A stretch of DNA of 60,182 nucleotides. Source: Hungatella sp. (GTDB lineage: Bacteria > Bacillota > Clostridia > Lachnospirales > Lachnospiraceae). Shown here in pieces: positions 8,914 through 22,802 of the stretch; positions within the stretch are counted from its first letter, which is position 1; the number at the start of each line of letters is the position of its first letter. The position numbers and the translations under genes were made by a program. The stretch lies in assembly GCA_022796015.1 (NCBI GenBank), contig JAAWHU010000012.1:1-60182 (forward strand), in the 5' to 3' direction. Below the pieces are notes generated by a model that was given only the letters and a program-made list of their open reading frames with translations, was not told where the DNA came from and did no database searches.

Positions 8914-9174
8914 ATGATAGACTTATCAGGAATTATGGGAATACCGCTGCTAAAAAAAAGCCGCTTTACAGGAAGCTATAAGAGTCTGCGGTATATACTG
9001 GAACGGCAGTCCGATGAGGAAAAGGGAGAACGGCTGGCAGCGGTATTCTGGATTGGCGAGAATTGTTATGATGCAACTCCCCAGGAGGAGAAGACCACCC
9101 AATGGTTCCCCTTTGACGAGGAAGGATTAAAAGCCGCCCAGGAGTGGCTTAACATTCAGGCCGGGAATTTGTGA
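8914..9174 (+). CDS. Hypothetical protein, 86 aa
   Basis: Small soluble protein with a basic N-terminal third (IPLLKKSRFTGSYKSLRY) and an acidic C terminus ending EEGLKAAQEWLN. No family was recognised with confidence. The start at 8914 has AGAGGG about 9 nt upstream; the in-frame ATG at 8893 would add seven charged residues and has a poorer site. A TATAAT at 8873-8878 is a likely -10 but no good -35 is visible. It is followed by a separate promoter for the next gene, so it is probably transcribed alone or with read-through. Confidence 0.6.
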   Translation: MIDLSGIMGIPLLKKSRFTGSYKSLRYILERQSDEEKGERLAAVFWIGENCYDATPQEEKTTQWFPFDEEGLKAAQEWLNIQAGNL

Positions 9175-9197
9175 AAAATGGGAAAATGTGGTACAAT
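9169..9197 (+). promoter_or_regulatory. Predicted promoter of the DUF2156 gene
   Basis: TTGTGA, a 17-bp spacer and TACAAT with an extended TGTGG before the -10. It overlaps the end of the preceding gene and lies about 75 bp before the next start. A GGTAC/GTACC inverted repeat spans the -10. Confidence 0.55.
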
Positions 9198-9273
9198 GTT
9201 GGTACCTCTCCGATTTGCAGAAAAAAGCAGCAGGAGCCAGGAAAAGACAAACAGCGAGAAAGGATAAAATACC

Positions 9274-10194
9274 ATGAACCTGGATTTCCGCCCCGTGGGG
9301 GCAAAAGATATTGACACTATGGCGCCTTATTTCAGCCTTCGCCCGAACAAGACCTGTGACAGTGCATGTCTGGAAAGCTTTTTGTGGCAGAGATACTATA
9401 ATGTACGGTTTACCATCTGCGACGAGAAAGCCATTCTGTGGCTTATGAGCCTGAACGGCGAAGAATATTCGGCGATGCCTATGTGCAGAGAGGAAGAACT
9501 GCCGCACTATTTTTATAAAATGGTAAGGTACTTTAATGAAGAGCTCCAAAAGCCTTTTAAGATTTGTCTGGCAGATGAGGAGGGAACAAAATATCTGAAT
9601 CTGGATCCAGAGAAATATGAGGTGACCGAGGAGGAGGATTCCAAAGACTATCTCTATGACGGGGAGGCCATGAGAAAGCTGTCAGGAAAGAAGCTCCACA
9701 AGAAGAAAAATCATCTCAATGCCTTTGTGAAGGAATTTGAAGGCAGGTATGAGTACAGGAAGCTGTGCTGTTCTGACAGACAGGATGTATGGCAGTTCCT
9801 TGATCTGTGGAGGGAGCAGAAGGGGGAAGATGTGGAGGAACACCTGGACTATGAGGTGGAAGGGATCCACGAGATCCTCAAAAACTGTTTCAACCTGAAT
9901 GTGCGTATGGGAGGCATTTATATTGATGGGCATATGGAGGCGTTTTCCATTGGAAGCTACAATTCCCTGGAGAATATGGCCATCATTCATATTGAGAAAG
10001 CCAATCCGGAGATCCGGGGCTTATACCAGTTTATTAATCAGCAGTTCCTGGTTCATGAATTTCCCGATGCCGTGCTGGTGAACCGGGAAGACGATATGGG
10101 GCTGGAGGGACTGAGACAAGCCAAGATGTCCTATAATCCCATTGGATTTGCCCGTAAATATAAGATTGTCCAAAAGCAGATGGGTGTGATCTGA
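9274..10194 (+). CDS. DUF2156 (LPG-synthase C-terminal-like, dual GNAT fold) protein
   Basis: 306 residues of the DUF2156 family, the catalytic fold found at the C terminus of MprF where it transfers aminoacyl groups to lipids. Here it stands alone without membrane segments. Visible landmarks are DYLYDGEAMRKLSGKKLHKKKNHL in the middle (basic Lys/His-rich loop near 130-150) and VNREDDMGLEGLRQAKMSYNP near the C terminus, both typical of the family. The aminoacyl or acyl substrate cannot be told. The start has AAAGGA 8 nt upstream. It is 15 bp from the next acyltransferase gene, so the two are probably co-transcribed. Confidence 0.82.
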   Translation: MNLDFRPVGAKDIDTMAPYFSLRPNKTCDSACLESFLWQRYYNVRFTICDEKAILWLMSLNGEEYSAMPMCREEELPHYFYKMVRYFNEELQKPFKICLADEEGTKYLNLDPEKYEVTEEEDSKDYLYDGEAMRKLSGKKLHKKKNHLNAFVKEFEGRYEYRKLCCSDRQDVWQFLDLWREQKGEDVEEHLDYEVEGIHEILKNCFNLNVRMGGIYIDGHMEAFSIGSYNSLENMAIIHIEKANPEIRGLYQFINQQFLVHEFPDAVLVNREDDMGLEGLRQAKMSYNPIGFARKYKIVQKQMGVI

Positions 10195-10209
10195 CAGGAA
10201 GGAGGAGCC

Positions 10210-11352
10210 ATGGTCAGAACCGGATATTTGACGCAGCAGGAAAAGGCCGGGACCATACCTCTCTGGAAGGAGGCGTTTCCAGAGGATGGGCCGGGATTTC
10301 TGGGCTATTATTACAAAGAGAAGACAAGGGATAACCGGATTCTGGCTGCATGGGAGGAGGAACCAGAGGAGCAGCACAACCCCACCGGGAATCAGGGGCA
10401 GGAACAGGCCGGCTCCAGGCGCATCCTATCCATGATTCACAGGAATCCCTACAGGCTCTGGATACATGGCCGGGTTATAGACAGCGATTACATTGTCGCA
10501 GTGGCTACGGCAAAGGACAGAAGGCATCAGGGCCTTATGAGAATGCTGATGAACCAGATGCTGGAGGACATGTACCGGGAGGGAATGCCCTTCTGCTATC
10601 TTATGCCGGCTGACAGAAGGATCTATGAGCCCTTTCAATTTGCATACATCTATGACCAGGAGCACTGGAGCCTGAAGGAAGAGGCGGAAAGGCAGTTAAA
10701 AAAGGAACAGGCCGGACTTAAGGAGGCAAAGAAGGCCGCCCGGTGGATGGAGGGCTGGCTGGAGGAGCGGTACGGGGTATTTGCAGTTCGTGACAGGAAT
10801 TATGTAAAGCGTCTCATGGCGGAGCTTGAGAGTGAGGGAGGGTGGATGGAATTTCTCTTTCAGGAGAAGACAGACAGCTCCCCGGAGGAAGGAGAGGGCT
10901 GCCCCGGCGTTAGCCCGGCCGGGATACGGTGCTGGTGGGGACTGGAGAAGAGAGAGCAGAGGATGCTTCTGTGCAGGGAGGAATACAGAGAAACCCGGAA
11001 GGAGAGGACGCCGGCCATTATGGCCAGGATTACAGAGCTGACAAAATGCCTGGAACTGGTTCATCTGAAAAGGGACAGCTCCTTAGACGAGATGGAGCTG
11101 ATTCTGCAGGTGGAGGATAAGCAGTGTCCCTGGAACAATGGAAGCTTTCTCTGGAGGATCGGGAAGGAGCGTTCCAAGGCTGTGAAGATGGAAGAACCAT
11201 GTGAAGCTGCATCCCCTGGAATCCTCTGCCTTCCCATGGAGATCGGCACCCTGACACAGCGTATTTTCGGATATGGGCAGCCCAAGGGGCCGGAGGACGT
11301 GTGGCAGGATATTGATACCTGGAAGGATGTTTTTCTCGATGAAATCGTATGA
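10210..11352 (+). CDS. GNAT family N-acetyltransferase, Eis-like
   Basis: 380 residues. An N-terminal GNAT domain carries the acetyl-CoA motif VATAKDRRHQGLMRMLM (about 97-113; R-x-x-G/A type as RRHQGL), followed by a PADRRIYEPFQF segment characteristic of Eis-like two-GNAT enzymes, and a C-terminal sterol-carrier-like part. Eis-type enzymes acetylate amines such as aminoglycosides or protein lysines; the natural substrate here is unknown. AGGAGG lies 5 nt upstream of the ATG. It sits between the DUF2156 gene (15 bp) and the Sir2 deacylase (15 bp), so an acetylase and a deacetylase may be co-expressed. Confidence 0.83.
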   Translation: MVRTGYLTQQEKAGTIPLWKEAFPEDGPGFLGYYYKEKTRDNRILAAWEEEPEEQHNPTGNQGQEQAGSRRILSMIHRNPYRLWIHGRVIDSDYIVAVATAKDRRHQGLMRMLMNQMLEDMYREGMPFCYLMPADRRIYEPFQFAYIYDQEHWSLKEEAERQLKKEQAGLKEAKKAARWMEGWLEERYGVFAVRDRNYVKRLMAELESEGGWMEFLFQEKTDSSPEEGEGCPGVSPAGIRCWWGLEKREQRMLLCREEYRETRKERTPAIMARITELTKCLELVHLKRDSSLDEMELILQVEDKQCPWNNGSFLWRIGKERSKAVKMEEPCEAASPGILCLPMEIGTLTQRIFGYGQPKGPEDVWQDIDTWKDVFLDEIV

Positions 11353-13110: not shown

Positions 13111-13299
13111 ATGGTTTTTGAAGTAGGAGAGATTGTAAAATTAAAAAAGCCTCATCCCTGCGGCAGCCATGAGTGGGAAATCCTGCGGGTAGGCGCAGAC
13201 TTCCGGCTCAGATGCTTAGGCTGTGAACACCAGGTTATGGTGGCCAGAAAGCTGGTGGAAAAGAACTGCAGGGGGGTAAGGAAAAAGACGGGAGTATAA
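13111..13299 (+). CDS. DUF951 domain protein
   Basis: 62 residues with the DUF951 pattern: VGEIVKLKKPHPCGSHEWEI near the N terminus, then LRCLGCEHQVMV with a CxxC. The conserved cysteines suggest zinc or nucleic-acid binding, but no function is known for the family. The ATG at 13111, 4 bp after the preceding stop, was chosen because GAGGTGAT precedes it and homologues begin at this point. Probably the last gene of the transcript starting near 9.2 kb; a long palindromic terminator follows. Confidence 0.87.
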   Translation: MVFEVGEIVKLKKPHPCGSHEWEILRVGADFRLRCLGCEHQVMVARKLVEKNCRGVRKKTGV

Positions 13300-13320
13300 G
13301 GGCTTTCCGGGAAAAGGAAA

Positions 13321-13366
13321 AGGGCCGGGAAAAACAGAGTGGATCCATTCTGTTTTTCCCGGCCCT
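13321..13366. terminator. Long bidirectional terminator hairpin
   Basis: A 46-bp palindrome with one mismatch: AGGGCCGGGAAAAACAGA on the left pairs with TCTGTTTTTCCCGGCCCT on the right around GGATCC. It separates the convergent DUF951 and XRE genes. Confidence 0.85.
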
Positions 13367-13372
13367 ATTTGT

Positions 13373-13690
13373 TTAAGTGTTTTGATTTAATTTTTTTAAA
13401 ATTTCCAAAAGATGTTTGGCCAGTTCCGGGGACAGCTTTTCTGTCTCCTGATACAACTGGCTGGATCGGGTGTAATGCTTCTTTTCTTCATTAAAAAAAT
13501 CTGCCGGGGTAACACCCAAATAGTCACAGATATTAAAAAACTGAGCCAGGGACGGCAAGGCCTTGCCATTCTCAATCCGGTTGATATAGCTTACGTTTTG
13601 TCCCAGTTCGATACTCATCGTGCGGGCGGAAATTCCTTTTTCCATTCTCAGCTGAGCCAGTCTTGTGGAAAACTGTTTTCCATCATACAT
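13373..13690 (-). CDS. XRE family transcriptional regulator
   Basis: 105 residues. A lambda-repressor-like helix-turn-helix spans about 8-62 (RLAQLRMEKGISARTMSIEL, then NVSYINRIENGKALPSLAQF; both quoted as landmarks), followed by a short Glu/Lys-rich C-terminal helix pair without a peptidase or ligand domain. It is divergent from the four-gene FtsK-like operon, with a 205-bp intergenic region containing a perfect 10-bp inverted repeat over the predicted promoter, so it most likely represses that operon and perhaps itself. Confidence 0.88.
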   Translation of the reverse strand: MYDGKQFSTRLAQLRMEKGISARTMSIELGQNVSYINRIENGKALPSLAQFFNICDYLGVTPADFFNEEKKHYTRSSQLYQETEKLSPELAKHLLEILKKLNQNT

Positions 13691-13795
13691 GGATTATGCT
13701 TCATCTGCCTTTCTTTCTGAGAGATTTGCCTTTTACCGGGCACAGCGGCCGGGCAGACAACCACAGACTCCATTAATTTTAGCATGGTAAAAGTA

Positions 13796-13824
13796 TTAAA
13801 ACGAGATATTAAATATGGTATATT
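13796..13824 (+). promoter_or_regulatory. Predicted promoter of the FtsK-like operon
   Basis: TTAAAA, a 17-bp spacer and TATATT with an extended TGG. It lies 70 bp before the first gene. The -35 is weak, consistent with a regulated promoter. Confidence 0.45.
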
Positions 13825-13849
13825 CTATAAAATAACGTTTTTAATATCT
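13804..13849. promoter_or_regulatory. Candidate operator: 10-bp inverted repeat
   Basis: AGATATTAAA (13804-13813) and TTTAATATCT (13840-13849) are perfect reverse complements separated by 26 bp and bracket the predicted -10. A related half-site, AGTATTAAAA, begins at 13792. The divergent XRE protein is the obvious candidate to bind here. Confidence 0.55.
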
Positions 13850-13895
13850 TACATCACGAAAGATCAAGAAAGGCAAAAGAGAAGGAGGAAAAGGA

Positions 13896-14696
13896 ATGTC
13901 AAATGAGATGGGAGTGGAATACGGAGGAGCGGAGGAGGGGATGTGTCCTTTCTACAGGAGAAAGATAAAGTCGCCGGCATGGTTTCGCTGTGTAAGTCCC
14001 AAGCATGCGAATCAGAATTATGAATTTTGCGGCGACGGCGCACATGCAGGCCAGTTTCAATACTGCAGTAACTGCGGCAGGAATGGCAGAAAAGTCTGTA
14101 AGTACTATTTTGAGCCTGTACAGGTTCAGGAGCCTGCACAGGTTCGGGTGCCTGCCCCTGACAGGCAGTCAGCACCGGTTGGGGTGTCTGCGCCAGACAG
14201 GCAGCCTGCGCCGGACAGGGAGCCCGCCCGCCAGGTACCCAGGGATGCAGGCGGACGGTCACAGGCAGGCACAGCATCTGTTTCCGGCGGAAGAGCCAGC
14301 AGCCGTTACAGCTTCGGCGGGGATCGGAACCAGCACATGTGTCAGTATTGGAGGAGGGATGAGGAGCAGGAGAAGGCCTATCACTGTGACAGCGATGGCA
14401 ATCCGGAAGGCCCCAGTTATAAGTTTCCCACTACAGGGCTTACCGACAGTGTGAAGCGGTTCCGGGAAAACTGCAGAAAGGCCGAGAACGGAGTGCCGCC
14501 GTGCTGCGAATATTTTCCGGGCGGCGGTTTTAAGAGCGGGGATTCTGAGAGCGGCGGCAGCGAGGAAAAGGAGGGTTCCGGTGAGCTCATGAAAGAATTG
14601 ATGGAGGCAGCAGTGAAGACCGCGTTCGATCCCCCCAGCGGTATCATAGAGGCTGTAGAGGTTGTGGGCACTCTGCTTAAAGATACCAATGGTTAA
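13896..14696 (+). CDS. Cys-rich protein with Pro/Asp/Arg linker (first gene of FtsK-like operon)
   Basis: 266 residues with no recognised family. Three parts are visible. Residues 16-70 hold a cysteine cluster (CPFY, C, C, CSNC, C) resembling a zinc ribbon. Residues 72-130 form a low-complexity linker built from repeated APDRQ/PAPDR units. A second cysteine/histidine group follows (HMCQYW, YHC, NC, PPCCEYF), then a Gly/Ser/Glu-rich stretch and a helical tail. No signal peptide or membrane segment. AAGGAGG precedes the ATG by 8 nt. It heads an operon with the next three genes (spacings 31, 66 and 13 bp). A metal-binding scaffold or adaptor is a reasonable guess, not more. Confidence 0.8.
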   Translation: MSNEMGVEYGGAEEGMCPFYRRKIKSPAWFRCVSPKHANQNYEFCGDGAHAGQFQYCSNCGRNGRKVCKYYFEPVQVQEPAQVRVPAPDRQSAPVGVSAPDRQPAPDREPARQVPRDAGGRSQAGTASVSGGRASSRYSFGGDRNQHMCQYWRRDEEQEKAYHCDSDGNPEGPSYKFPTTGLTDSVKRFRENCRKAENGVPPCCEYFPGGGFKSGDSESGGSEEKEGSGELMKELMEAAVKTAFDPPSGIIEAVEVVGTLLKDTNG

Positions 14697-14727
14697 AAAG
14701 AATACAACAGAAAGGAAGGCATAAGAC

Positions 14728-15456
14728 ATGCAGCAGATGGGGCTGGATATTCTTCCGCCGGGTGCGGCAGACAGCTATGAACAATATTTGGGAAAAGTAA
14801 AAGAGTCCATGGAGCATCTCATCCAGGAGACCGGGAATGTAGCGGGCATCCTTGACAACCATGACGAGAACACATTTACAAAAAACATGCAGGAGGTTTT
14901 GCGGAAGCTTGCCGTGCAGGCGGAGACCACGGCATATTCTACGAAAGAGATTACAGAAGAGCTGCTGCGAAAGCTTGAGGAGAAGAACGACTCTGTGGGA
15001 AGCAGAACCCAGGGGGAATATATTGACCAGATACGCGGTGCAGCCGCAGCCCTGGAGGATCTGGAGCCTTACAAGGATTGTGATTTGTCCGGTACAGACA
15101 CATTTACAGAAGAAGATAAGGAAGAGATCCAGATGGGGCTGGGAGATCTGACCGACGAATGGGAGACTGCCATTGAGGAGCTGAAGAGAGATGCAGAGGA
15201 TTTCAGCCAGGAGAATGTTCAGAACGAACTCAGCGGCATCTATCTTCTTCTGGCTCAGCAGATGGAGGGGCTTCTTCAGAAAATGGCGGACATTGTAGAG
15301 CCGGTAGGGGTATCTCTGGATGAAAGAGCTGATAATGTCAGCAGCAGGCGGACAGAGATGGAACAGACGGCAGAGGAGCTCTTTGCAGAAGCCATCACAA
15401 GATTTGAGCAGGAGCTGGAGGAGACGGCCGAAAAGTTTACAGACATTGTATTTTAA
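14728..15456 (+). CDS. Helical hypothetical protein (second gene of FtsK-like operon)
   Basis: 242 acidic residues, predicted almost entirely alpha-helical with coiled-coil-like heptads (for example ITEELLRKLEEKN and RFEQELEETAEKF). No membrane segment, signal peptide, WXG or LXG motif. Not recognised as a known family. Its size, helicity and position before a coiled-coil membrane protein and an FtsK-like ATPase suggest a structural partner or cargo of that machinery; this is inference from context. A purine-rich AAAGGAAGG lies about 8 nt upstream of the ATG. Confidence 0.8.
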   Translation: MQQMGLDILPPGAADSYEQYLGKVKESMEHLIQETGNVAGILDNHDENTFTKNMQEVLRKLAVQAETTAYSTKEITEELLRKLEEKNDSVGSRTQGEYIDQIRGAAAALEDLEPYKDCDLSGTDTFTEEDKEEIQMGLGDLTDEWETAIEELKRDAEDFSQENVQNELSGIYLLLAQQMEGLLQKMADIVEPVGVSLDERADNVSSRRTEMEQTAEELFAEAITRFEQELEETAEKFTDIVF

Positions 15457-15522
15457 ATTTTCATAAGAACAACAGCCGGTTTACGCGAATGAAAATGAGA
15501 AAAGGGACAGGAGAATAACCGT

Positions 15523-18507
15523 ATGATAAACCAGAATGGCAGAGATGCCTTTGAAATCTATAATGATGGGGGGGAACGGATTTTACAGGAATTTGGTTCC
15601 TGCCGCCGGTTTCTGGCAGATTTGAAAAAGCAGAGTGAAGAGACAAGACAGCAGAAAGAAGAAATGGAGCAGAAGCACAGCAATGAACTGGAAGACTTAA
15701 ACAGCCAGATCAGCCAGACCCAGGAGAAAATCCAGGAAGCAGTGACTGAGCACCAGAGCGTTCTGTTAAAGGAAGAGAATCAATATAAGGAAAAAAAGGA
15801 TCAGCTGGCAGTACAGCAGGAGAAAAGCCTTGGGGAGAAGGACAAAGAGATCGGCTTATGCCAGGAGAGGCTAAAGGATCTGGAACAAAAGATCAATGAG
15901 ACAAAGAAGGTTCCTGAAAACCCTCTGACTTCAGAGGAGGTAACAGCAAGGACAGATCAATTCCGCCGGAATCAGGAGGAATTTCAGAATGCGGAACTTT
16001 TATATGTCAAGGAGAATCAGGACCAGGGACGCCTGGGGGAGAGAAACGAGAAAGAAGAAAAACTGAGACAACGCCGCCAGGAAGCGGATTTAAGTGCAGC
16101 GTCCAGGGCACGAAAGCGGCTGAGCAGCGAGATGAATCAGATGGAGACTGCCGAGGACAATTCCTTCCTGGAGTTTACGTCAGATATTCAGAGAGCCATC
16201 CGGAAGGAGATAGAAAGGATCGAGGGTCACCGTGAGGAGCTGATCCGTGAGGATGTAGAAGCCCTTATGGATGGAACCCGCAGGCAGAACGAGACCCGTA
16301 TTGCCAAGATAAAGGAAAACCATAGGAATAACCTGAACAAGAAAGAGCAGATGAAGACCGTGGGACGCTGGATCCTTTGTTTTCCCATTAACCTTCTTAA
16401 AGATCGCTTCTCCTTAAGCAAGAAGATGGTAGATTACGGCGGGATAGGCGCCGGGATTATCTGCTCCCTTTTAATGCTGCTTAACCCGGATCTGCTGGGG
16501 ATGATCATTATCGTGACTATGATTGCAGGGCTGGGATATGGCTGTCTGCTGGGAATCAAAAAAGGAAGAGGCCGCATGGGCATGACTCTGGCCATAGTCC
16601 AGGGAATCGGGATTATGGTGATCCGGATTCTTCCTTACCCGCTTCTGCTGTTTGCAGTCACCAGAAGCGTCACGCTGTGGGCGGTATGGCTGGCAGCGGG
16701 ACTCCTGATGTATGCCCTCTATGACATCTATTATATGGTGCGGAGGTTTCGGCCTTCCTACCGGCAGCTGAACCAGAAGTACACTTTGGAGAGAAGTACC
16801 TATTATGACAAACGATTGGAGGAGTTAAGAGCTGCGGCACAGAAATACGAAGGCTTTCTGGCCGAAGAGACGGAGCAGGTGAAGGAAGAGCTGGAGATGG
16901 AGGCGGCAAAATTAGCCGAGCTGACCAGAACCGTGGACGAGGAGGAGCGGCAGCTGAGAAATGCGTTTGCAGAAACCATCTGGGGCAACATTGTAAGCTC
17001 CTTTGAGGAGAAGCTGAAACAGCAGCTGGAGAGAGAGCGGAATCAGGAGAAAGAACGTGTAGACACACTGGCACGGCTGCAAAACGAAGAGGGGGCTCAA
17101 AAGGCAAAGCTGGAGAACGAGAAAACATGTCGGATACAGCTTGAGAAGGAGGGAAACAAAAAGAAACAGGAGCTGGACGAAGAACTGAATCGGGCAAAGA
17201 AAGAGGCCGACGCGCAGCTTAAGAGCCATAAAGAGAAAATCGAAAATGAGATACATAAGCTGGAGGAACAACGACAGAAGAAGGAGAAGAAACAGCAGGA
17301 GGCCATGGAGGGATTCCTGGCGGAACGAGAACAGCAGAGACAGGCTCTGGATCAGAAATTCCAGGATGAGCTTAACCGGCTCACCGGGCAGATGAGGGAA
17401 GACGGTTTTAAGGGGATATGCGGATTTGACTACCGTGATGCATGGGCCGTGATGCATGGAATGCTGACGAATCTCATCTGTTATCCGGCTAACTTAGGAT
17501 CCTATCAAGGGAAGATCAAGAATGAAGGAGGGATTGACGTTCTTCAGAAGATGCTGGCATCAGACCAGGGCATGGACGAGGAAAGCCTGAGAAAGATAAA
17601 ATCAAGAGGAGGCAGCGGCAGCTGCTACATGCCCCGGAATATTTTGTGGGGAGCAGAGGCCTGCGGCAGTCATGAGCTGGAGGAGGAGATCCGGGCCGGT
17701 CTTGGGAAGGCCCTGAAGGAAAGTGAAGAATTTAAGGAAATCTCGGGCTGGGATCCGGATCAGATCAGAGAATACGGAATTCAGGAACTTCCATGGGATA
17801 CCTTGTACCGTCTGAAGCTGGTGGACAGCCAGGATCGTCCCATGCTTATATATTATGATCTGGGAGACATGGATAAGGACACGGCGGAAAGAAAGGCTTT
17901 GTGCCGCTATATTATGAAGACCTTTGTATTCCGCCCCCTGTTTTATATCAACAATAAAGACTATTTCAAATGCAACATCCTTGTGTCTGATTATCCGGAG
18001 GATTATAAACAGTTCGAGCAGAACCCGTTGCTGAATAAATGCATGATGGTTACGGAGAAGTCCTTATTTGCCAAAACCCTGGAGGGGCTGTATGACAGCG
18101 GGGAGAAGGTGTGGAAGCGCCTCAAGCCCTATGGAAGCCTCTACGAAAAGAATCGGGAAAGATGCAAAAAGGGAGTGCTTCCTGCCAAGGATGATGGTTA
18201 TCGAAGCCTGATTATCGCCAACATGGATTATAAGGCTCTCAGCAATACCCGGTTAAAAAACCTGCTGAACTTAAGCTGTCAGGAAAAAGGCAACCCCTGC
18301 GGCGTATACCCCTATTTGTTTGTGGATCTGAACTGGATGAAAAATCACAAAGAGGGAACAGACAGGGCCTCTGTGGAATACTGCAGAGAGCTGGCAAAAT
18401 CGTTCCAGGGGAAATGCTGTCTGCTGGAAAAGAACCGTGGACAGTACTGCTTTACGGAGAAGGACTCTGCAGACGAGCTTTATGAGCTGCTGGGAACCAT
18501 AAACTAG
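15523..18507 (+). CDS. Large membrane-anchored coiled-coil protein (third gene of FtsK-like operon)
   Basis: 994 residues. An N-terminal coiled coil runs over about 30-280 (dense Gln/Glu/Lys heptads). Three or four hydrophobic segments follow at about 303-345 and 353-405. A second long coiled coil covers about 420-630, and a globular C-terminal domain of about 365 residues ends the protein. The C-terminal part holds mixed alpha/beta patterns (MLIYYDLGD, CNILVSDYP, YPYLFVDLNW) but no Walker motif, so it is not an SMC ATPase. No family recognised. It most likely forms a membrane ring or tether with its coils in the cytoplasm. It is 13 bp from the FtsK-like gene, implying that they work together. 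Confidence 0.85.
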   Translation: MINQNGRDAFEIYNDGGERILQEFGSCRRFLADLKKQSEETRQQKEEMEQKHSNELEDLNSQISQTQEKIQEAVTEHQSVLLKEENQYKEKKDQLAVQQEKSLGEKDKEIGLCQERLKDLEQKINETKKVPENPLTSEEVTARTDQFRRNQEEFQNAELLYVKENQDQGRLGERNEKEEKLRQRRQEADLSAASRARKRLSSEMNQMETAEDNSFLEFTSDIQRAIRKEIERIEGHREELIREDVEALMDGTRRQNETRIAKIKENHRNNLNKKEQMKTVGRWILCFPINLLKDRFSLSKKMVDYGGIGAGIICSLLMLLNPDLLGMIIIVTMIAGLGYGCLLGIKKGRGRMGMTLAIVQGIGIMVIRILPYPLLLFAVTRSVTLWAVWLAAGLLMYALYDIYYMVRRFRPSYRQLNQKYTLERSTYYDKRLEELRAAAQKYEGFLAEETEQVKEELEMEAAKLAELTRTVDEEERQLRNAFAETIWGNIVSSFEEKLKQQLERERNQEKERVDTLARLQNEEGAQKAKLENEKTCRIQLEKEGNKKKQELDEELNRAKKEADAQLKSHKEKIENEIHKLEEQRQKKEKKQQEAMEGFLAEREQQRQALDQKFQDELNRLTGQMREDGFKGICGFDYRDAWAVMHGMLTNLICYPANLGSYQGKIKNEGGIDVLQKMLASDQGMDEESLRKIKSRGGSGSCYMPRNILWGAEACGSHELEEEIRAGLGKALKESEEFKEISGWDPDQIREYGIQELPWDTLYRLKLVDSQDRPMLIYYDLGDMDKDTAERKALCRYIMKTFVFRPLFYINNKDYFKCNILVSDYPEDYKQFEQNPLLNKCMMVTEKSLFAKTLEGLYDSGEKVWKRLKPYGSLYEKNRERCKKGVLPAKDDGYRSLIIANMDYKALSNTRLKNLLNLSCQEKGNPCGVYPYLFVDLNWMKNHKEGTDRASVEYCRELAKSFQGKCCLLEKNRGQYCFTEKDSADELYELLGTIN

Positions 18508-18520
18508 AGGAGGGCGAGCG

Positions 18521-20974
18521 TTGAGTCTATTTGATGAGATGATCATGGATAAGGAGGAGGAGCGGGAGAAACAAAATATCCTGCCCTACTGGAGGTATCG
18601 GGATGCTCGGCTGGAGATCGGGGAAGAGGCGTTGTTGGAGCGGAGAGAACGCAATTACGGCAAGAAAATCCGGTTCCGCAGGGATCTGGAGCACCACGAG
18701 GAGGAAGGGGTTATCCGCATTTCTCCCCAGTTAACTGTGGTCTGGGATAAGATTAAGAGGGAAAAGGACGGGGCGAAATGCCGGGAGATGGTGGAAAAGC
18801 TGCTGGAGGCTCCGGAAAGTGAAGGAGGCTGCAGGATCATCCCCGTAAAGCGGCTGAGAGAATATACAGAACAGCTGGCACAGGAGGAATACAGCTACCA
18901 GAATATGTGGTTTGCCACTACGGCAAAAGGCATTGACATCCGGCCCGGCCTTCGCGACGAAGAGGATCCCCTGCCCATGGAGCTGGGAGATGACTGTGTC
19001 CATGCCTTAATGGCCGGACGTACAGGAGCCGGTAAATCCGTGGCGCTCCATGCCATTATAACGGGATTAATGTTTGAATATGCCCCATGGGAACTGAATA
19101 TCAATCTTGCGGATTTTAAGATCGTGGAGATGTCCAAGTACGGCAATTCCCACTATGAGGAGGAGGGCGTAAAAAGAGCCGCCAAGGCCCCTCATGTGGG
19201 AAAAATCGCAGCAACCGATGGAATGGAATATGTGCTTTCCCTCATGTATGACATGTATGAGCAGATGGATATCCGGCAGAAGGTATTTGCCGCCATGGGG
19301 ATTCAGAAGCTGTCTCAGTACCGGGAGATGTTCGGAGTAGTGCTGCCAAGAGAGATCCTGATTGTGGATGAATTTCAGCAGATGTACGAGCTGGCCACGC
19401 CGAAGCAGGCGGAGATCATCAATCAGCTGATCAAGATGATCACCAAGCTGGGAAGGGCCACGGGCTATCATCTGTTCTTCACATCCCAGAGCATGTCCGG
19501 TACGGTAAGGGCCGATGTGCTTGCCAACTTTAAACTAAGGCTCTGCCTGCCGGCCAGCGAGGATGTGTCCTCCCTGGTACTGGGCAACAAAGCGGCTTCA
19601 GAGCTCACAGGCCCCAAGAGCCGGGGCTATCTGATCGCCAACAGCGAGGGCGGGGCCAAGGAGTTCAACCAGGAGTTCAAGGTTCCCCTCCTGGCTGAGG
19701 GAGAAGAAAACGGGGAAGAAAAAAGCCTCAGTGATCTGGAAGAAGTTCTGCGGATCAACTCCAAATTGGCACAGCAGCTGGGCTATGACAAGGGCATGGA
19801 TTTTTACAGAGAAGAAGTCCTGAGGCCTTTATGGGGCAGCAAAGACAGCCTGGAGGCCGACCTGGCCAGGTTTTATGATAATACCCGCCAGGCTGTGGCA
19901 GGAGATGAAGAACTTGAGGACTATGTCCTTTTGGGGGATTCCTGTGTATACGCCCGTGCGCCGGGGAAGAATTCGACCCTGGAGTATGCTCCGCTGAAAT
20001 ACGGGGATCGGAAAAATATTCTCTGCATTGCAGACAGCGTATATCAGCGGGCCTACATGCTGGAGCTGCTGGCCATGCAGTACGGCCTGAGAAATGAAAC
20101 CAACCAGAATTATATGGTACATGGAGATATGGTGGTAAAGGGGCTTTTGAGAATGCCGGGCATATCATGGAAAGAGATTCCCGCAAGAAACTTCACGGAC
20201 ACCTTCCTCCAGCATTACCAGATGAGAGAGCTTCTCCAGCATTTTGTACAGCTTCCCCTGGAGGAACGTACCAAAGAGGCTTTGCAGAGAATCGTGGAGG
20301 GGCGCCAGAGAGAAAAGCGGACAAAGGCCAGAATGGAGCAGATTCAGAAGCTGGAGGCCATTGCAAAGGAGAACAGGCAGCAGGAACAGGATCCCCAGGT
20401 AAGAAAACGACTGGAACAGGAATCTTCTCAGGAGATTCAGAAGATGAAACAGAAGGTGCAGGAAATCGTGGAAGGGGAGCTGGCCCGGCAGACCGATATA
20501 CAGTGGGCCATGTATCAGAAAGGCCTGGATCAGGATGGACAGTTCCGGTTCAAGGGTCTTAAGACCATAACCTTCTGGGTCAACGGCTGTCATATGCTTT
20601 CCGACCTCATGGAGGAGTGGGGAGGAAGAGCAGGAGGGTATGTTATGGCAGATGTGCTGAAACGCTGTACGAATATGGGGATCCGTGTAGTGGCAGTAGG
20701 AGCCAAGGCCTGGGATCTGTCTCCGGCAGTCCTTAAGAATTTCGGATATTATTTTATCCAGAGCAGCGACGAGATGAATTTTACCAAGCTGGGGATGCAG
20801 CGCCCCAAAGAGTATAAAGACACGGTGCTGCGGTTTAGGGCAGTCAATGAGCCTCTCAACAGGCAGAAGCCCAGCCTCTATATTCTGTCTCAGGATGAGA
20901 AGCTGGTAAAGACCTTTGAGACGGAGAGCGCGGAGCAGACCGGCCGGGAACGGGAGTTTTTTGCCGGGATTTAG
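18521..20974 (+). CDS. FtsK/SpoIIIE-like ATPase with a second degenerate domain (fourth gene of operon)
   Basis: 817 residues, TTG start at 18521 with AGGAGGG about 7 nt upstream. Domain 1 is an FtsK/SpoIIIE motor: Walker A GRTGAGKS near residue 166, an ADFK segment, Walker B ILIVDEFQ near 280, a sensor-like FFTSQSM and a LKLRLCLPA-type strand. After a coiled linker (about 590-650, Gln/Glu/Arg-rich) comes a second FtsK-like fold whose Walker A position (IADSVYQRAYMLEL) lacks Lys and whose Walker B reads TFWVNG, so only domain 1 should hydrolyse ATP. No membrane segments and no gamma DNA-reading domain. Tandem active/degenerate FtsK domains are known from type VII secretion ATPases (EssC/EccC); the partner genes here do not match that system. 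Confidence 0.88.
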   Translation: MSLFDEMIMDKEEEREKQNILPYWRYRDARLEIGEEALLERRERNYGKKIRFRRDLEHHEEEGVIRISPQLTVVWDKIKREKDGAKCREMVEKLLEAPESEGGCRIIPVKRLREYTEQLAQEEYSYQNMWFATTAKGIDIRPGLRDEEDPLPMELGDDCVHALMAGRTGAGKSVALHAIITGLMFEYAPWELNINLADFKIVEMSKYGNSHYEEEGVKRAAKAPHVGKIAATDGMEYVLSLMYDMYEQMDIRQKVFAAMGIQKLSQYREMFGVVLPREILIVDEFQQMYELATPKQAEIINQLIKMITKLGRATGYHLFFTSQSMSGTVRADVLANFKLRLCLPASEDVSSLVLGNKAASELTGPKSRGYLIANSEGGAKEFNQEFKVPLLAEGEENGEEKSLSDLEEVLRINSKLAQQLGYDKGMDFYREEVLRPLWGSKDSLEADLARFYDNTRQAVAGDEELEDYVLLGDSCVYARAPGKNSTLEYAPLKYGDRKNILCIADSVYQRAYMLELLAMQYGLRNETNQNYMVHGDMVVKGLLRMPGISWKEIPARNFTDTFLQHYQMRELLQHFVQLPLEERTKEALQRIVEGRQREKRTKARMEQIQKLEAIAKENRQQEQDPQVRKRLEQESSQEIQKMKQKVQEIVEGELARQTDIQWAMYQKGLDQDGQFRFKGLKTITFWVNGCHMLSDLMEEWGGRAGGYVMADVLKRCTNMGIRVVAVGAKAWDLSPAVLKNFGYYFIQSSDEMNFTKLGMQRPKEYKDTVLRFRAVNEPLNRQKPSLYILSQDEKLVKTFETESAEQTGREREFFAGI

Positions 20975-21003
20975 AACCGATATAAGGACAAAGCTTACCT
21001 TTT

Positions 21004-21047
21004 AAAGGCAGGCTCCCGGACATTCAGGATGGGAGCCTGCCTTTTCA
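21004..21047. terminator. Bidirectional rho-independent terminator
   Basis: AAAGGCAGGCTCCC (21004-21017) pairs with GGGAGCCTGCCTTT (21031-21044), flanked by A/T runs. It closes both the FtsK-like operon and the convergent degV gene. Confidence 0.92.
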
Positions 21048-21051
21048 TCGA

Positions 21052-21885
21052 TTACCGCCTGATATATTGAATGGCCACGCACCGGGGCCCTCCCTGTGCC
21101 ACGAAAGCAGCGCTCAGCTCCAGAATCCGAACTTCCAGTTCGCTGAATGCACTCTCAAACATAGCCTTTATTTTGCCTGCATCCTCCAGAGCCTCGGCGT
21201 GGGAGATGTAGAGGAGATGCTGTCTGCCCAGATGCTTTTCTTTCATATACTGAATAATGCTTTCTGCGGCAGAGGCCATGGTACGTTTGATTCCGAACTT
21301 ATCCAGCCTTTTGCCGTCAGGGGTCAGCTTCATAATGGGCTTCAGCTTCAGGACAGAGCCGGTGGCGGCAGCCAGAGGCGTAAGCCGCCCTCCCCTTTTC
21401 AGGAAAGAAAAATCCTGGGGAATGAGAAATGATTCCGTGTTGTCAGCAGCCTGCTTCAGCCAGGCAAGGATCTCCTGGGCAGAGCTTCCCTCCTCCTTCA
21501 TCTTTTGAGCTGTCTGAACCATGTAGCGATGGGGGCCGCAAAGGGTGCGGCTGTTAAAAACCGTAATCTGATCCTTATGCTCCAGCATCTCTCTGGCAGA
21601 GCAGGCAGTCTGGTAAGTTCCCGACAGGCCGTCAGCCATAGAGATATTAATGATCTCCGAACCCTCATAGGTGTGGAAAGCTTCCAAGACATCCCCCAGG
21701 GGAGGCTGGGAGGTGGTGGGCAGAAGGCCCTGGCTGATTTTTTTATAATAATCATCCATGTCTATTTCCAGATCCCGTCCATGGCGGTCTCCGATGCTGA
21801 CACACAGAGGGACTGACTCGAATCCTGCCTTCCGGGCAGCCTCCGGTGTGTAAAGAGAAGAAGAATCTGTAATGATCTGTACCAT
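21052..21885 (-). CDS. DegV family protein (fatty-acid-binding, FakB-like)
   Basis: 277 residues of the DegV fold, which holds a fatty acid for the kinase FakA in exogenous fatty-acid use. Visible are the N-terminal IITDSSS, the TTSQPP loop (about 58-63), GLSGTY and an SFLKRGGRLT segment, all family hallmarks. No fakA is in the window. Clostridial genomes carry several DegV paralogues, so the acyl preference cannot be told. Start ATG at 21885 is preceded by GGAGGT. The region 21886-22040 upstream is AT-rich with no gene. Confidence 0.9.
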   Translation of the reverse strand: MVQIITDSSSLYTPEAARKAGFESVPLCVSIGDRHGRDLEIDMDDYYKKISQGLLPTTSQPPLGDVLEAFHTYEGSEIINISMADGLSGTYQTACSAREMLEHKDQITVFNSRTLCGPHRYMVQTAQKMKEEGSSAQEILAWLKQAADNTESFLIPQDFSFLKRGGRLTPLAAATGSVLKLKPIMKLTPDGKRLDKFGIKRTMASAAESIIQYMKEKHLGRQHLLYISHAEALEDAGKIKAMFESAFSELEVRILELSAAFVAQGGPRCVAIQYIRR

Positions 21886-22109: not shown

Positions 22110-22802
22110 TTAGGATGCAGTAAAATTAAGGGGATGCTGTTCCATCCATTCGATGCAGGGAGCACACAGGGTGGTTGATCCCACCACGTTATGTTCACAC
22201 AGTCTGTAACCCAGCAGATGATTTTCACCTAAAAAAGACTCTGTATCTGAAAAATACCACTGAAACTCCTGGGGAACGGTATTGAGATCAACGGAAGAAC
22301 CGTCGGCGATTCCGTTATAGTTTAAGTCTGTATACCCGCAGCCGTTCATGGGATCCCGGTCATCAATTCCATTGTGATCCTGATCCAGGAGCCCGTCACT
22401 GAAATCAGTACGCTGAATCACATACTGGGAGGGAAGGGGTTTTTCATAAGTTTCAAAATCAAAAAGCATACTTGTATGATTCGATATGCGCATAATGATG
22501 CCATTGTCATATTCATAAAAATCGTCGATACTATGGGATATCTTGAATATATTGATAATCTTTGACTGCTTTTCATTGTAATAGGCTTCCCTGCCCTCTG
22601 CTTTTCCGCTGGAGCTATAGTGCTGATAAAGGGCGGCTGCATCTGTCCCGCAGGCCGCTGCTACATCAGGATAAGTCTGTAAATAGAATTCCGGGTCAAA
22701 GATCGTGCCATCCTCCATCTTCTGGGGCCTGGCATAGCTTGTCATGGCAAATGACAGGATAAACAGAAGGGATGACGCAATTAAGAGTAGTTTCTTTTTC
22801 AT
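22110..22802 (-). CDS. Secreted protein with EF-hand-like loops
   Basis: 230 residues with a clear signal peptide (MKKK, hydrophobic core, SYA). A motif of the type FDPEFYLQTYPDV...GxAEGR (about 38-75) recurs in exported clostridial surface proteins. Two calcium-loop-like sequences follow: DQDHNGIDDRD and DLNYNGIADG, as in dockerin or thrombospondin-3 loops. Three of four cysteines lie in the C-terminal third. Likely an extracellular or wall-associated protein needing Ca; no catalytic motif is seen and no named family was assigned. Monocistronic, with its own terminator. Confidence 0.75.
   Translation of the reverse strand: MKKKLLLIASSLLFILSFAMTSYARPQKMEDGTIFDPEFYLQTYPDVAAACGTDAAALYQHYSSSGKAEGREAYYNEKQSKIINIFKISHSIDDFYEYDNGIIMRISNHTSMLFDFETYEKPLPSQYVIQRTDFSDGLLDQDHNGIDDRDPMNGCGYTDLNYNGIADGSSVDLNTVPQEFQWYFSDTESFLGENHLLGYRLCEHNVVGSTTLCAPCIEWMEQHPLNFTAS

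Follow-up and report, generated by a model that had tools for sequence, protein, structure and literature searches.

A recurrent FtsK-type motor module in Hungatella and relatives that may form a minimal, type VII-like protein-export machine

Introduction

What might an operon do when its only recognizable product is a motor ATPase of the FtsK/SpoIIIE type? This question is raised by a four-gene cluster with a divergent XRE-type regulator gene in a Hungatella sp. contig (JAAWHU010000012.1), of which a stretch of 60,182 nucleotides, hereafter the window, was analysed. A preliminary description of this DNA had suggested a new translocation, secretion or defence machine fitting no named system, whose four genes should travel together. 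Here we compare the cluster with its relatives and with described secretion systems.

Results

Layout, insertion and regulation

As had been proposed, the four genes are adjacent and co-directional on the + strand, separated by 31, 66 and 13 bp, and an XRE-type gene (13373-13690) diverges from them on the - strand. The features are as follows (positions in the window).

13286..21049: accessory insertion of ~7.76 kb with the whole cluster, between a DUF951-like gene and a DegV gene
13322..13365, +: terminator-like hairpin near the insertion's left end, 20 pairs
13373..13690, -: XRE/Cro-type repressor gene, 105 aa, divergent from the operon (PF01381, E=2.2e-10; PF13560, E=1.7e-10)
13796..13824, +: candidate sigma-70 promoter of the operon (TTAAAA, 17 nt, TATATT, TG before the -10)
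13804..13849: candidate operator, whose inverted-repeat arms AGATATTAAA/TTTAATATCT flank the predicted -10
13896..14696, +: Cys-rich protein gene, 266 aa, 11 Cys, two Cys clusters (zinc-ribbon-like), Pro-rich linker
14728..15456, +: helical protein gene, 242 aa, six predicted helices (AF2)
15523..18507, +: membrane protein gene, 994 aa, with a coiled coil, four TM segments (302-392), a second coiled coil and a C-terminal pseudo-FtsK domain
17788..18507, +: C-terminal pseudo-ATPase of the membrane protein, FtsK/EssC fold
18521..20974, +: soluble FtsK/SpoIIIE-type motor ATPase gene, 817 aa, with Walker A (residue 166) and Walker B (279)
21004..21044, +: terminator-like hairpin after the ATPase gene, inside the insertion, 14-bp stem and short T tract, read by eye

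The lack of fit to any named system also stands, since only FtsK and HTH domains exceed curated cut-offs in the libraries searched. Pfam has no match for the 266-residue Cys-rich or the 994-residue membrane protein and only weak, sub-cut-off matches for the 242-residue helical protein, and the PADLOC output consists of FtsK-domain, HTH and coiled-coil cross-matches, those of the ATPase being partial FtsK-domain matches.

In two congeners (L039 and L040) the site is empty: homology to the window ends on the left at 13285 and 13283, respectively, and resumes on the right at 21050 and 21059, with 8 and 22 bp between the two edges, and the short gene on the left, which we take to be DUF951-like, is the neighbour of the DegV gene. 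The window therefore has ~7.76 kb of extra DNA, containing the XRE gene, the operon and the two hairpins. No direct repeat of at least 8 bp was found at its edges (13251-13330 against 21001-21070), and its G+C content of 0.504 is not deviant when set against 0.51 and 0.492. The cluster is rare in Clostridia and relatives: the membrane protein was found in one of 99 relatives (E up to 1e-5) and the ATPase in one of 398 genomes drawn from the phylum (E up to 1e-40), in both cases the window's own genome. Within the family the ATPase occurs in four of 397 genomes, the window's included (E up to 1e-25), and one of the four is a phage-like contig without the operon. Beyond the insertion, between DegV and rpsF, a gene at 22110-22802 (-) encodes a protein of 230 aa, signal-like at its N-terminus and without a convincing family; it is absent from the same two congeners (no tblastn match; ~225 bp between DegV and rpsF there) and could represent another small insertion.

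The XRE gene and the operon are 205 bp apart, and the promoter-like site sits inside the inverted repeat; this promoter is a consensus match only, of a kind found 13 times in the stretch against 7.8 expected. The 10-mer AGATATTAAA occurs exactly three times in the window, where 0.14 occurrences are expected, and always at the XRE/operon gene pair, the third copy being at 13528-13537. We infer that the XRE protein may bind the candidate operator. The conditional use suggested earlier is plausible, given the XRE gene beside the operon and the XRE-like regulators upstream in the relatives' loci scanned, over the Pfam cut-off in L028 and below it in L021. In both loci the membrane gene is preceded by genes for mutually related proteins of 464-490 aa (L021 4050-5522; L028 3-1397 and 2278-3705), with an XRE-type N-terminal domain that is weak in L021 4050-5522 and over the cut-off in L028 2278-3705.

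The ATPase and the membrane protein

The ATPase gene starts with TTG behind a GAGGAGGG motif, and its product belongs to the FtsK/SpoIIIE/HerA superfamily by an FtsK_SpoIIIE domain with Walker A and B (PF01580, E=1.9e-17, 63.9 bits against a cut-off of 24). The GRTGAGKS and ILIVDEFQ motifs are intact, as described before, at residues 166 and 279, and Walker A and DEFQ are present in 21 of 21 ATPases (the fragmentary L031 left out). What did not survive is the claim of a tandem FtsK-like ATPase: the 817-aa protein has a single Walker A, and profile comparison detects no further FtsK-like domain in the C-terminal half (hhalign probability 2.6 %). The second FtsK-type fold lies instead at the C-terminus of the 994-aa membrane protein. 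The ATPase has no TM segment and is thus soluble. Its closest NCBIfam families are EssC/EccC, far under their cut-offs (83.9 bits against 778.4 for EssC). In a midpoint-rooted tree with many long branches, the window's ATPase is the deepest branch joining 20 others (90/87); an ATPase of a phage-like contig is next (97/93), followed with weak support by plasmid ATPases (80/17), and FtsK, Dnd and phage ATPases form a separate group (100/98). The clade does not fall with EssC/EccC, but the EssC/EccC branches are long. The phage-like or mobile contig (L009, G364:C196, ATPase at 9112-11271, -) is without membrane and helical genes, and polymerase-, primase- and transposase-like frames were noted on it by eye.

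The membrane helices predicted for the 994-residue protein are borne out as four hydrophobic segments at 302-392. A profile built without the window finds this protein at full length with E=3.5e-16 (bias 71) and its C-terminal domain with E=1.1e-11 (bias 0; next ORF 0.41). The C-terminus aligns with the first domain of three plasmid ATPases at hhalign probabilities of 86-88 %; in a reversed-side control hhalign gives 0.1 % for the first domain and 0.3 % for the middle domain. EssC/EccC structures are among its best fold matches, and the best Foldseek row for the model of this domain is TcpA of pCW3 (E=1.3e-5). The window's membrane protein has no Walker A, and the pattern occurs in 0 of 18 membrane proteins. 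The role of motor tether or gate proposed for this protein has to be refined, because the protein has a pseudo-ATPase domain and so looks like half of the motor, not merely its tether.

A conserved triad

Relatives were sought with a three-row ATPase alignment and two short peptide patterns in genome_contigs, which is described as covering 84,980 species. At least 21 ATPase loci were found, in records named Lachnospiraceae, Oscillospiraceae, Tissierellia, Defluviitaleaceae, Erysipelotrichaceae and others, after L007 and L008 had been dropped as copies of L018 and L021; the split ATPase and downstream frames of L026 were used only as separate pieces. Gene neighbourhoods were judged in 19 of the 21 loci, leaving out L031, a contig-edge fragment, and L011, whose ATPase is preceded at the contig edge by transposase-like frames (3-1053, IS110-like by eye). 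The helical gene adjoins the ATPase gene, 6-78 bp upstream, in all 19, its domain being the C-terminal part of a 521-aa protein in L028. By profile, the membrane protein precedes the helical gene in 18 of the 19: within 76 bp or overlapping in 14 loci, after a 978-bp gap in L020, and with a Cys-rich gene in between in L021, L022 and L025 (the contig edge truncates L016 and L023). In L029 a coiled-coil protein takes this position, and the profile does not match it even when filters are off. The window's own gene order differs from that of the relatives, being Cys-rich, helical, membrane, ATPase. Note that most relatives' rows went into profile building, so these counts describe position. The window's membrane protein serves as an independent test, as does the L030 helical protein, which stands outside the helical profile and matches it with E=5.4e-64. 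Thus, the expectation that the four genes travel together holds for the helical, membrane and ATPase genes and is not supported for the Cys-rich one. The joint recurrence of these three genes and the cleanly empty site in two congeners mark the cluster as more than a chance assembly.

The Cys-rich protein itself has no family match and no significant relative in the Pfam and NCBIfam libraries or the relatives' loci. Other Cys-rich proteins are encoded directly upstream of the helical gene in three of 21 relatives (L021, L022 and L025); they share no significant sequence similarity with the window's, and the CP...W[FY]xC spacing in those of L021 and L025 resembles it by eye only. A place among the core parts is therefore not supported, and the protein may be an accessory, lineage-specific adaptor or cargo.

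The helical family and toxin-like proteins

The AF2 model of the window's helical protein consists of helices (pLDDT 62), and a profile built without the window reaches the protein with E=0.0029 only (bias 17). In the family alignment one aligned place holds Trp in 17 of 17 members besides the window's, which lacks this Trp, and Ser follows six residues later in 16 of the 17. Comparison of the family with the WXG100-like proteins of three plasmid systems gave no profile similarity (probability 1.8 %). By its position, size and predicted helices, the window protein is presumed to be an adaptor or cargo subunit.

In 12 of the 21 loci, the gene after the ATPase encodes a protein of 445-1052 aa that starts with the helical domain according to iterated profiles (one of two profiles in L029), with single-round support in several, such as L018, whose helical protein matches its own downstream protein with E=8e-15. 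Among 11 of 15 downstream proteins compared (L011, L014, L016 and L026 left out), 22 of 55 pairs match over the first 240 residues and three of 55 over the last 220, and this combination of a shared N-terminus with a variable C-terminus is the pattern of polymorphic toxins. A C-terminal papain-fold glutamine-deamidase toxin domain (PF15644, cut-off 24.1 bits) is over the cut-off in two of the 15, L019 (E=3.6e-16, 60.7 bits) and L012 (E=1.8e-14, 55.2 bits); no convincing toxin domain was seen in the other 13. The genes that follow in L019 and L012 are mutually related (22.8 % identity, E=2.5e-14) and are candidate immunity genes, and these two loci fit a polymorphic-toxin layout by toxin domain and paired gene. 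Such pairs of toxin and immunity-like genes are typical of delivered toxins.

Large Sel1-repeat proteins, possibly a further component, are encoded downstream of the toxin-like genes in L012 (15254-18118), L019 (10684-13743) and L026 (13580-15289), and by eye a Sel1-like protein lies upstream in L027. In L011, L014 and L016 a different family of 447-469 aa follows the ATPase, with small proteins bearing two hydrophobic segments nearby in L011 and L014; the hydrophobic glycine-rich stretches seen by eye in these three loci suggest a membrane-acting protein with an immunity protein.

No toxin-like gene lies beside the window's operon, and a search elsewhere in its genome, without a positive control, found none, so that this copy may have other cargo or be a remnant of a larger locus.

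Type VII components in carrier genomes

The 22 carrier genomes, namely the window's and those of the 21 loci, include many MAGs that may be incomplete (the window's is 88.55 % complete). With positive B. subtilis controls for each search, YukC/EssB and the ubiquitin-like YukD/EsaB were over the cut-off in none of the 22 (weak matches in one and two genomes, respectively), and WXG100 in one, which is not the window's; the latter has a single sub-cut-off WXG100 match (19.2 bits) on another contig. YukD/EsaB is absent in T7SSd. The weak YukC matches, in G871 (C17 and C21), lie in frames with one TAG each, which may reflect a reassigned stop codon or broken genes. By these counts, and to the extent that the genomes are complete, the module is not simply an accessory of a canonical type VII machine in its carriers.

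Discussion

The translocation-type module suggested at the outset is supported as a recurrent association of motor, membrane partner and small helical protein. We suggest that the cluster probably encodes a minimal type VII-like machine for protein export and is carried horizontally. In it, the soluble ATPase would assemble on the dead copy of its own fold at the cytoplasmic C-terminus of the membrane protein, and together the two would act like an EssC/EccC ATPase cut in two. This motor would grip the helical protein, and in relatives also the toxin-like proteins that begin with the same domain; ATP hydrolysis would push the helical protein together with its toxin partners across the membrane, the target being most likely rival bacteria. 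The XRE repressor would hold the system off until needed, and the cargo of the window copy may be the Cys-rich protein or the helical protein itself. It would be tempting to go further and see a secretion machine of Clostridia and relatives in its own right, apart from T7SSa-j, in which a membrane pseudo-FtsK ring docks a soluble FtsK motor, polymorphic toxins are exported by way of a non-WXG helical domain, and the window copy is a basal or stripped form moving only the helical and Cys-rich proteins; this fuller version is tentative, and we give it somewhat less than an even chance.

The cluster could also be one more T7SS subtype, whose EssC is split in two and whose EsxA has diverged strongly. 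This idea draws on EssC and EccC as the ATPase's best NCBIfam matches, on their structures among the best folds for the membrane protein C-terminus and on the LXG-like organisation of the downstream proteins. We consider it unlikely in view of the scarcity of WXG100, YukC/EssB and YukD in the carrier genomes (many of them MAGs that may be incomplete), the dissimilarity of the helical family to the WXG100-like proteins of the three plasmid systems and the separation of the ATPases from EssC/EccC in the tree, though on long branches.

An intracellular conflict or defence system, whose motor controls toxins within the cell, for example during phage infection, without export, is quite improbable. 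The membrane protein in 18 of 19 judged clostridial loci, the toxin and immunity-like pairs and the merely partial, FtsK-domain character of the ATPase's PADLOC matches speak against it, even though the Helicobacter, Caballeronia and Rhodococcus plasmid relatives have no convincing membrane anchor, the Caballeronia relative has genes of the CARF, kinase, phosphatase, vWA and AAA types as neighbours, and the clostridial cluster has an XRE regulator, is rare and is carried as an insertion. A DNA pump, be it a conjugation coupling protein or a plasmid or chromosome translocase with a membrane anchor, would agree with the FtsK/TcpA folds and is nevertheless very hard to credit, given the toxin-domain neighbours in two relatives, the separation of the ATPase from the FtsK/Dnd/phage branch (100/98) and the lack of a named relaxase among the few neighbour genes scanned.

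The export reading suggests that type VII-like toxin export is possible with an EssC-type motor split into a dead membrane and a live soluble subunit, and without WXG100 proteins. If true, it would separate the essentials of this kind of secretion from clade-specific features, provide a simple system for studying the role of pseudo-ATPase domains, and hint at a tool for competition in Lachnospiraceae, Oscillospiraceae and others. The arrangement is not named in the titles and abstract openings found by searches of the open-licence PMC literature, which is not proof that it is undescribed.

How, then, does the cluster compare with known systems? The type VII placement that the preliminary description had named as the result that would count against its reading proved half right: EssC/EccC are the nearest NCBIfam families, yet far below cut-offs. 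As far as they are characterized by Garrett et al. (2024, PMC11217815), T7SSb with EssC, T7SSa with EccC and T7SSc-j likewise combine an FtsK-type motor with a small helical partner and with polymorphic toxin-like proteins sharing an N-terminal helical domain. In T7SSa-j, however, EssC/EccC is one membrane-bound polypeptide with several FtsK-type domains, whereas here the ATPase is soluble with a single Walker A, and both the window and 18 of 19 judged relatives encode the membrane pseudo-ATPase separately.

The second comparison is with mobile T7SS-like systems, described in Zhang et al. (2012, PMC3482391), whose FtsK/HerA ATPase has three domains of which only the middle one is active. The ATPase core corresponds to the middle domain of three plasmid proteins fitting that description (hhalign probability 100, E=8e-47), the membrane protein C-terminus resembles their first domain (86-88 %), and toxin and immunity neighbours are common to both. 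Unlike in those systems, as far as that description goes, the dead first domain sits here on a separate membrane coiled-coil protein, a third domain was not detected, and instead of a solo WXG protein (21 of 22 carrier genomes have no over-cut-off WXG100) there is a 240-residue helical family, in Clostridia and relatives. The plasmid ATPases that group nearest, with weak support, have WXG100-like neighbours; the Helicobacter and Caballeronia plasmids (L034 and L035), from Gram-negatives, encode a WXG100-like protein and a soluble three-domain ATPase. In the Helicobacter plasmid, genes for a WHH/colicin-type DNase and SMI1/KNR4 immunity lie between the WXG100-like and ATPase genes, and the Caballeronia system lies amid CARF, vWA, kinase, phosphatase (PP2C) and AAA genes. 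Finally, TcpA, the pCW3 conjugation coupling protein, has a fold like that of the pseudo-ATPase but differs from the clostridial relatives in their toxin-like neighbours. We conclude that the cluster is type VII-like by anatomy and, by the features tested, stands outside the type VII systems.
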